From Parvibaculum sp. (GTDB lineage Bacteria > Pseudomonadota > Alphaproteobacteria > Parvibaculales > Parvibaculaceae), in the NCBI RefSeq assembly GCF_002684405.1, contig NZ_NYVD01000107.1:1-56556 (forward strand): 56,556 nucleotides of DNA. The letters are read 5' to 3'. Positions 1,238 through 20,860 of this stretch are shown piece after piece. Position 1 is the stretch's first letter, and each line of letters starts with the position of its first letter. The notes beneath the pieces are model-generated. The model saw only the letters and a list, made by a program, of their open reading frames with translations, made no database searches and had not been told where the DNA came from. The translations under genes and the position numbers were made by a program.

Positions 1238-1771
1238 AGGCTCTTTCTCCTTACTAATAAAGATTCTTGAAATAGTAGGGGATAGTGGATGGCTGTGGAT
1301 GATGGGGATTAAAACGCCACCCGTTTTCATCCACAGGCGGGACGGTACATGGCGGCACCCTTCCCGGCCCCTTCCTAACGCAAGATGCCTGTGTGCAGAA
1401 GAGGACATAATGTCGAAAGCATCGCAGCTTCGGCAGCTTGATCTGTGGGCGGCTTTTCCACACAGCCTGTGAAGCATGGGGATAATTTGTGGGTCATACC
1501 GGGACAGTCATGTTTTCCCCGATTCCCCTAAGCGTATCCGCGGGCTTTTCCCTGGACTCATGAAACAGGGGAGGAAAAACGCAAAGCGGGTATGGCTAAG
1601 TCATACCGCTTCCGAAAAGCCGAGTTACGCCCGTTCTCCACACTTATCCACAAGGGTGACAGCAATATACGTGAGGTTGTGCCGGGGCCTGTCCGGCTCG
1701 CGTGGCAAGCGAAAAATATTGGCAAGCCGGGGAGCAGACCGATAGTTTGGCGCAGCTGTCGGGAAAGGTTC
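1238..1771. other. oriC: Predicted chromosomal replication origin (oriC)
   Basis: This 534-bp gap between divergent hemE and ppsR has no credible gene. It holds a perfect DnaA box TTATCCACA at 1644-1652, preceded after one base by TTCTCCACA at 1634-1642. One-mismatch boxes are at 1294-1302 (TGTGGATGA, minus), 1327-1335 (TCATCCACA) and 1454-1462 (TTTTCCACA). An A+T-rich stretch at 1245-1315 lies beside hemE. GANTC sites are at 1262, 1521 and 1555. The nonamer GTCATACCG occurs at 1493-1501 and 1600-1608, the second copy being half of an imperfect dyad starting near 1586. The origin of Caulobacter crescentus lies between hemE and the homologue of ppsR, so gene context and motifs agree. I see no full CtrA site (TTAA-N7-TTAA) here, unlike Caulobacter. 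Confidence 0.85.
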
Positions 1772-10458: not shown

Positions 10459-11763
10459 TCAAAGAATGAACTTGGACAGATCCGCGTTCTTCGACAGGTC
10501 GCCGATATGCTTGTGCACATAGGCCGCGTCGACGGTGACCGTTTGGCCGTAAAGGTCGCTGGCGGCATAGCTGATTTCTTCCAGCACCCGCTCCATCACA
10601 GTGTGAAGCCGCCGCGCGCCGATATTCTCGACCGTTGAATTGACGGACACCGCGATATCGGCGAGCGCGTCGATCCCGTCCTCGGTGAAGTCGAGCGTCA
10701 CGTCTTCCGTCTGCATCAGCGCCACATATTGCTTGATGAGGCTGGCTTCCGGCTCGGTGAGGATGCGCTTGAAGTCTTCCCGGGTCAGCGCCTGCAGCTC
10801 CACCCGGATGGGCAGACGGCCCTGAAGCTCCGGCAGGAGGTCGGAGGGCTTGGAGATGTGGAAGGCGCCGGAGGCGATGAAGAGGATGTGGTCGGTCTTG
10901 ACCGCGCCATGCTTGGTGGAAACCGTGGTGCCTTCGATAAGCGGCAGCAGGTCGCGCTGCACCCCTTCCCGGCTCACATCGCCGGAACGCTCGGATTTCG
11001 CGCAGATCTTGTCCACCTCGTCCAGAAAGACGATGCCATGCTGTTCGACGAGCTCGATGGCGTCCTGCGTGAGCTGTTCCTGATCGAGCAGCTTGTCGGA
11101 TTCCTCGGCGATCAGCACGTCATGGCTTTCCTTGACGCTCATGCGGCGGGTCTTGGTCCGGCCGCCGAACGCCTTGCCCATAATGTCGGAGAGATTGATC
11201 ATGCTGACCTGGCTGCCGGGCATGCCCGGCATATCCATGAAGGGCATGCCGGAGGCGGAATCCGACACCTCGACCTCGATTTCCTTGTCGTCCATCTCGC
11301 CGCTGCGCAGCTTGGCGCGGAAATTTTCCCGTGTGCTTTCGCTCGCATTTTCGCCCACCAGCGCGGTGAGCACCCGCTCTTCGGCGGCGATATGGGCCTT
11401 GGCCTGCACGTCGCGGCGCTTCCTGTCGCGCACGATGCCGATGGCGATTTCCACAAGATCGCGGACGATCTGCTCCACATCCCGGCCCACATAGCCGACC
11501 TCGGTGAACTTGGTCGCCTCGATCTTGATGAAGGGCGCCTCGGCGAGCTTGGCGAGGCGGCGGGAAATCTCGGTCTTGCCCACGCCGGTCGGCCCGATCA
11601 TCAGGATGTTCTTGGGCAGCACCTCTTCGCGCATCGCTTCCGGCAATTGCTGGCGGCGCCAGCGATTGCGCAAGGCGATGGCCACGGCGCGCTTCGCGTC
11701 CTGCTGACCGATGATGTAACGGTCGAGTTCCGAAACGATTTCACGCGGCGAGAAACTGGTCAT
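10459..11763 (-). CDS. hslU: ATP-dependent protease ATPase subunit HslU
   Basis: HslU (ClpY) is the hexameric AAA+ unfoldase that feeds substrates to HslV. The 434-residue protein has the N-terminal [23 protein letters not shown], Walker [10 protein letters not shown] at residues 57-65, the inserted I domain around residues 110-230 (with [11 protein letters not shown]), Walker [12 protein letters not shown] and the C-terminal [14 protein letters not shown] that activates HslV. A weak GGAG lies 14 bases before the ATG. Four DnaA-box-like nonamers lie directly upstream. hslV is upstream on the same strand but 438 bp away, more than usual for this pair, so hslU may have its own promoter. Confidence 0.96.
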
Positions 11764-11767
11764 GGGG

Positions 11768-11811
11768 TGAGGATAACTCCGTGGATAACTGTGGATATCG
11801 TCCGTGGAAAA
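11768..11811 (-). promoter_or_regulatory. Tandem DnaA-box cluster before hslU
   Basis: Read on the minus strand, four nonamers in one orientation resemble TTATCCACA: TTTTCCACG (11811-11803, two mismatches), ATATCCACA (11798-11790, one), TTATCCACG (11788-11780, one) and TTATCCTCA (11776-11768, one). Start-to-start distances are 13, 10 and 12 bases, close to a helical turn. The last box ends four bases before the hslU ATG. The site is about 10 kb from the predicted origin. It could let DnaA control hslU or hold DnaA away from oriC. Confidence 0.6.
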
Positions 11812-12201
11812 CGGGGCTTAAGTGACAATCAGCCTGTCAAAAAGCATGACTTTCTTGCTCCGGATACCAATTTTTCCGGCCCCGGAACGATCCCGGTCAT
11901 CGGTATGCGGACAAGCTCTTGCGCCAGCGTGAAGGCGACCGGAAACCTTGTTTACTGTGTTGTTTTCATTAGCAAAATAGATCCGTCTGTATGGAGCGGG
12001 ATGGCACTTTCGCCGACCCTTCCCGTCGTTTCCGCGACCCGTCTTCCAACCCGCAAATCTGAATAATGGCATTCAGCGCCTGTTGGAGCGGAGAGCCGCC
12101 GACCCGGCATGTGAAAGACTGTGCCGCTTCGCGGCGCAGCGGTCCGCAAAACCGCTATCGGGGCCGGTCTGCCGGTGTCTGGGGAGCCGTGGGTCCATCG
12201 G
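11812..12201. other. Non-coding gap between hslV and hslU
   Basis: About 390 bp without a gene I can support on either strand. The middle (11820-12000) is A+T-richer than the flanks and is the likeliest place for an hslU promoter, but I find no convincing RpoH or sigma-70 pair. The right third (12060-12200) is G+C-rich. Short frames crossing it on both strands show no family similarity. Confidence 0.5.
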
Positions 12202-12762
12202 TCAGCCATCCAGTGCTTCGACAACGACATTGTCATTGGTGTAGACGCAGATTTCCGCGGCAATTCCCATCGCTTTTCGGGCGATTTCTTCCGCGCCGAG
12301 ATCGCTGTCCATCAGCGCCTTGCCGGCGGCAAGCGCATAATTGCCACCCGAGCCGATGCCGACCACGCCGCCATCGGGCTCCAGCACGTCGCCATTGCCG
12401 GTCAGCACCAGCGTGACTTCCTTGTCGGCCACGATCATCAGCGCTTCGAGGCGGCGCAGAAAGCGGTCGGTCCGCCAGTCCTTGGCAAGTTCCACCGCTG
12501 CCCGCAGCAGCTGGTTGGGATATTGCTCGAGCTTGGCCTCGAGCCTTTCGAACAGCGTCATCGCATCGGCCGTCGCGCCCGCGAAACCGGCGATCACATC
12601 GCCCTTGCCGAGCGGGCGCACCTTGCGCGCCGTGCCCTTCATCACCGTGTCGCCCATGGAAACCTGGCCGTCGCCGGCGAGAACGACTTTCCCGCCCTTG
12701 CGGATGGCCAGAATGGTGGTGCCATGCCAGTCGACGGGGAAGCGGCGGTTCGGGTCACTCAT
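12202..12762 (-). CDS. hslV: ATP-dependent protease peptidase subunit HslV
   Basis: HslV is the proteasome-like double hexamer degraded-substrate chamber that works with HslU. The 186-residue precursor begins [19 protein letters not shown]; by family precedent the first 14 residues are removed so that Thr15 becomes the N-terminal nucleophile. [21 protein letters not shown] and the C-terminal [13 protein letters not shown] are typical. The ATG at 12762 is chosen over an upstream codon that adds 22 unrelated residues. A possible heat-shock promoter lies about 100 bases upstream. Confidence 0.95.
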
Positions 12763-20851: not shown

Positions 20852-20860
20852 TGTGGATAA
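20852..20860 (-). promoter_or_regulatory. Perfect DnaA box before hisE
   Basis: TGTGGATAA on the plus strand is the exact complement of TTATCCACA. It lies alone in the 145-bp gap between the pentapeptide gene and hisE, 75 bases before the hisE ATG. A single box can be chance. Confidence 0.4.

Follow-up and report, generated by a model that had tools for sequence, protein, structure and literature searches.

A predicted oriC-type DnaA-box array in the hslU leader of one Parvibaculum lineage

Why do four sequences resembling the binding site of the replication initiator DnaA stand in tandem directly before the start codon of a protease gene? The case is that of hslU in a Parvibaculum MAG (draft genome of 3.42 Mb in 184 contigs, 92% complete), in which the window, meaning the whole 56.5-kb stretch of DNA analysed, is contig C107; the nearest relative of the species is P. 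indicum DSM 25305, with an HslU that is 97% identical. The answer we favour, tentatively and at somewhat less than an even chance, is that the four sites form a young, lineage-specific, predicted oriC-type DnaA-binding array in the hslU leader, which would block hslU transcription and serve besides as a small origin-proximal sink.

The array and its surroundings

The initial annotation described four DnaA-like boxes in one orientation, three with one mismatch and one with two, about one helical turn apart, ending four bases before the hslU ATG and 10 kb from a predicted origin; direct reading agrees with it throughout (Table 1). All four boxes point the same way on the minus strand, one behind the other; their successive starts are separated by 12, 10 and 12 bp, and bases 11767-11764 lie between the last of them and the ATG (11763-11761). 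The array overlaps the hslU leader and brackets a GGAG found at the same place upstream of hslU in most genus members, so that the boxes lie over a leader, as boxes of DnaA-regulated promoters lie over a promoter or leader. Boxes 1, 3 and 4 carry altered bases (G at position 9, T at position 7), changes which usually weaken binding. The protein that would read them has an intact box-reading domain IV, which aligns without gaps to E. coli 1j1v and keeps the SLPEIG and GGRDHTTV motifs. No DnaA boxes with at most one mismatch were found in 3.2 kb around the dnaA end, a stretch that covers the upstream edge of the gene in part. In P. indicum two additional short open frames, L140 (G019:C2:132234-132434) and L141 (G019:C11:34391-34585), encode the C-terminal, box-binding domain of DnaA, and one of the two has a perfect DnaA box ~310 bp away; the window genome shows dnaA only.

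Table 1. Positions in the window of the hslU array, the genes beside it and predicted oriC
Feature	Positions	Strand	Remarks
Predicted oriC, between hemE and PF03618 gene	1238..1768	.	DnaA boxes at 1285-1652
hslU, AAA+ unfoldase subunit of HslUV	10459..11763	-	
hslV-hslU intergenic region, 438 bp	11764..12201	-	
hslV, peptidase subunit	12202..12756	-	start approximate
48-bp block identical in window species and P. indicum	11766..11813	-	
150-bp conserved stretch before hslU, leader or promoter	11766..11915	-	89% identical in P. indicum; identity about 70% or less beyond it
DnaA-like box 1, TTTTCCACG	11802..11810	-	2 mismatches to TTATCCACA; direct reading; identical in P. indicum
DnaA-like box 2, ATATCCACA	11790..11798	-	1 mismatch to TTATCCACA; first half of 10-bp tandem pair
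DnaA-like box 3, TTATCCACG	11780..11788	-	1 mismatch to TTATCCACA; second half of 10-bp tandem pair
DnaA-like box 4, TTATCCTCA	11768..11776	-	1 mismatch to TTATCCACA; corresponds to genus-typical leader GGAGTTTTCCTTC
Putative Shine-Dalgarno GGAG, between boxes 3 and 4	11777..11780	-	first G is last base of box 3; presumed function

Pfam matches agree with the HslU, HslV, HemE and PF03618 assignments. Among the species measured, the 438-bp hslV-hslU spacer is common to the window species and P. indicum only, the same two species to which the array is confined; the two genes of relatives mostly stand 24-72 bp apart, or else are separated by about 540-590 bp. A search of the spacer for a remnant of the gene that sits between hslV and hslU in some relatives gave no significant match, a weak result because the query was probably out of frame. 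A 24-bp stretch of the spacer (~11922-11945) matches a TRAP-permease coding stretch exactly in P. indicum and near-exactly in several other Parvibaculum; as this was the sole match, and probably a coincidental one, we rejected the idea that the spacer is an insertion shared with elsewhere in the genome. The fold of the hslU leader RNA is ordinary (z = 0.21), which disposes of an RNA thermometer or structured leader.

Genome background, likeness to oriC and conservation

The window holds ten boxes with at most one mismatch (six in oriC, three in the hslU array and one at 20852), against 3.3-4.8 expected under Markov models. No triple of such boxes within 45 bp arose in 80 Mb of simulated sequence (20 Mb at each Markov order 1-4), and pairs arose at 0-0.5 per genome-equivalent, in a simulation that assumes independence and whose assumption local tandem duplication would break. 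The array is not a chance occurrence; it consists of several matches close together, beyond chance, and belongs to the already known class of extra-origin DnaA-box clusters. The lone box at 20852-20860 is a perfect TTATCCACA on the minus strand, intergenic and upstream of a hisE-like gene, ~9.1 kb beyond hslU; P. indicum has it too, flanking bases included, at the equivalent position (C9:183320).

Pattern searches in the window genome and P. indicum supplied the genome background. The pattern TATCCACN{0,30}TNTCCNC had 14 and 12 matches in the two genomes, fewer than its reversed control (21 each), and the hslU site was the only place with two overlapping pairs; TATCCNCN{0,6}TATCCNC matched five times in the window genome, two of these being the hslU array. 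Perfect DnaA boxes number 11-14 per genome. Both genomes have few strong clusters outside the origin, and of those that these searches found, only the hslU array is non-coding; the prospect raised in the initial annotation, that the genome might hold many equal clusters, did not materialise.

The closest likeness in the same genome is oriC itself. Predicted oriC is bordered by the hemE GTG at 1237 (minus) and the PF03618 (PPPase) gene at 1769 (plus), the interval that holds oriC in Caulobacter and many relatives. Among its boxes are two 10-bp tandem pairs, at 1285-1299 on the minus strand and at 1637-1651 on the plus strand, with the same step as the central hslU pair, and P. indicum retains most of this box layout. 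The central hslU pair (boxes 2 and 3) fits the motif TCCACANNNWTCCAC. The whole P. indicum genome contains exactly three matches to this motif, C9:202423 and C9:202776 in oriC and C9:192359 at hslU. The window genome has six matches, two in oriC, one at hslU and three (C23, C43, C114) at places over which long ORFs run; neither genome contains a match to the reversed control. Matches in three further genus members (G016, G009, G023) also fall within the hemE-side oriC array, and thus across the genus the signature of spacing plus core marks oriC, plus hslU in two species. Upstream of hemE, several genus members have a head-to-tail array with 9-10-bp steps at oriC. Like the hslU array, this array has head-to-tail TCCAC boxes with 10-bp steps close before a start codon; it differs in lying within oriC and in having TCCCC members, whereas at hslU the steps are 12-10-12 and TCCCC does not occur. 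The longest identical run of a 15-kb alignment between the window and P. indicum is the 118 bp at 1185-1302, over the hemE start and the DnaA array upstream of it.

In P. indicum all 48 bp of the block containing the boxes are unchanged, so the boxes did not prove to lack conservation even in a sister species, the other adverse outcome that had been foreseen. Identity falls to 83% in the adjoining 102 bp upstream and to about 53-73%, in 100-bp steps, in the far part of the spacer, and fourfold sites in 12 neighbouring genes are 74.5% identical between the two species; an identical run of 48 bp has a probability of ~1.6e-4 at 83% identity and ~7e-7 at 74.5%. The array is absent from the 21 other Parvibaculum and 7 other family hslU loci read, and the TATCCAC pair pattern was not found at hslU in the other 25 genus genomes. 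It is also absent from about 79 wider loci (Hyphomicrobiales; mainly Bradyrhizobium and Afipia), where the sole box near an hslU start is a single one in Rhodomicrobium (L094), and on this account the idea that Hyphomicrobiales in general keep DnaA boxes at hslU was rejected. The array is therefore lineage-specific and, being present in two species only, does not belong to any conserved hslU circuit; as read from these sequences its conservation is narrow but real. Bradyrhizobium hslU loci (e.g. L046) have a conserved CTTGTC...CCTAGCT, ~17-18 bp apart, directly upstream of hslU, which resembles a heat-shock sigma factor promoter and has no obvious counterpart in the window.

These three features, the oriC-like architecture, the near-uniqueness in the genome and the perfect conservation in the sister species, support the reading of the array as a DnaA site, and to judge by its sequence it probably is one. 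This part of the initial annotation stands; its comparisons with the E. coli sites datA and DARS fared less well (see below).

Competing explanations

A local tandem duplication of an hslU leader unit (about GGAGTTATCCAC) could have given the array an accidental DnaA-box look, with conservation owed to the ribosome-binding leader of the hslU mRNA. We think this unlikely, although part of it probably applies: CGGAGTTTTCC or a close variant stands directly before hslU in many other Parvibaculum and corresponds to the GGAGTTATCC that makes box 4, so the innermost box is probably a recycled, genus-typical 'GGAGTTTTCC' ribosome-site leader. Boxes 3 and 4 both contain AGTTATCC, including part of the spacer, and short tandem duplication may be partly responsible for boxes 2-4; together, recycling and duplication weaken the case for 'four' independent boxes, and selection on the hslU leader itself could account for some of the perfect conservation. 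Recycling and duplication do not account for the oriC-like pair or the full conservation. Several observations speak against this explanation: the similarity between repeats centres on the DnaA core TATCCAC and not on the spacer, the 10-bp pair matches oriC sites, strict conservation reaches ~35 bp upstream of the ribosome site, and the unremarkable leader fold offers such an RNA-based cause no help.

Alternatively, the array may bind DnaA mainly as an origin-proximal sink, like the DnaA-box clusters of B. subtilis, being doubled soon after initiation and so lowering free DnaA, with any effect on hslU incidental. Its nearness to oriC, its same-orientation architecture and its standing as the only strong non-coding cluster found outside oriC all suit this explanation; in B. 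subtilis, removing six oriC-proximal clusters leads to early initiation (PMC5295017), and in E. coli DnaA boxes are enriched near oriC (PMC12371093). However, four imperfect boxes are not many compared with oriC and the 11-14 perfect ones in each genome, and a pure sink needs neither overlap with the ribosome site nor letter-for-letter upkeep that includes the spacers, and we consider this explanation rather improbable.

Least convincing, and very unlikely, is the idea that a different DNA-binding protein uses the array, or that it belongs to an hslU sigma factor promoter, with the TATCCAC repeats there by chance: hslVU is commonly a heat-shock operon and the 150-bp conserved block suggests a promoter region, but no sigma-70 consensus promoter was found in the hslV-hslU gap, no convincing heat-shock promoter is visible by eye over the array, and the motif is otherwise concentrated in oriC.

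Known DnaA-box systems and a proposed role

Among known systems, the oriC-proximal DnaA-box clusters (DBCs) of B. subtilis are, like the hslU array, outside but close to oriC, and at 10.1 kb from oriC the array is near in the sense used for such clusters. Some of them lie in regulatory regions of DnaA-repressed genes, several B. subtilis operons being repressed by DnaA (PMC4447404); here, by contrast, there is one predicted array, in an alphaproteobacterium, at hslU. DnaA also represses at boxes adjoining oriC in the case of mioC (PMC5835720). E. coli mioC resembles hslU in having DnaA box(es) directly upstream of an origin-near gene, an arrangement allowing repression in step with the initiation cycle; it has one consensus box right beside oriC, whereas hslU has four weaker tandem boxes, 10 kb away and over the ribosome-binding region.

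The likeness to datA and DARS goes less far. E. coli datA is defined by essential boxes in one direction and an IHF-binding site between DnaA boxes (PMC5742627), and the hslU array shares with it same-orientation boxes outside the origin yet fairly near oriC. The datA boxes, however, are widely spaced around the IHF site, whereas those at hslU are 1-3 bp apart with no room between; the IHF consensus WATCAANNNNTTR (at most one mismatch) did not turn up in 700 bp of the window species or in 800 bp of P. indicum, in a search so insensitive that oriC gave none either. Membership of datA is unsupported. DARS1 and DARS2 are, like the array, non-coding DnaA-box clusters outside oriC, but in their core of three boxes, box I runs against the direction of boxes II and III (PMC5742627); all four hslU boxes lie on one strand, and this orientation rules out DARS.

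The position of the array makes control of hslU by DnaA plausible, and such control would be a feature of the two-species lineage only. In the reading we favour, DnaA would assemble head-to-tail on the boxes, spaced 10-12 bp, and since the array overlaps the 5' leader and the ribosome-binding region, the complex would block or roadblock hslU transcription. Repression would be strongest at the peak of active DnaA before initiation, and would ease when DnaA activity declines and the locus is itself copied, shortly after oriC. The array may at the same time add a small origin-proximal DnaA sink. The wider proposal, that a newly evolved oriC-type array represses hslU in step with initiation and so ties proteolysis by HslUV to the replication cycle of this one Parvibaculum lineage, is in our judgement possible though doubtful. 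For Caulobacter HslUV no substrates were known as of 2017 (PMC5760092).

Should DnaA bind here, the locus would show clearly how, within one genus, an oriC-style array has appeared at an origin-near gene, with ~20 sister genomes that lack the array as natural controls. It would then also link the replication initiator to the HslUV protease, and would offer a tractable example of the birth of extra-origin DnaA sites.
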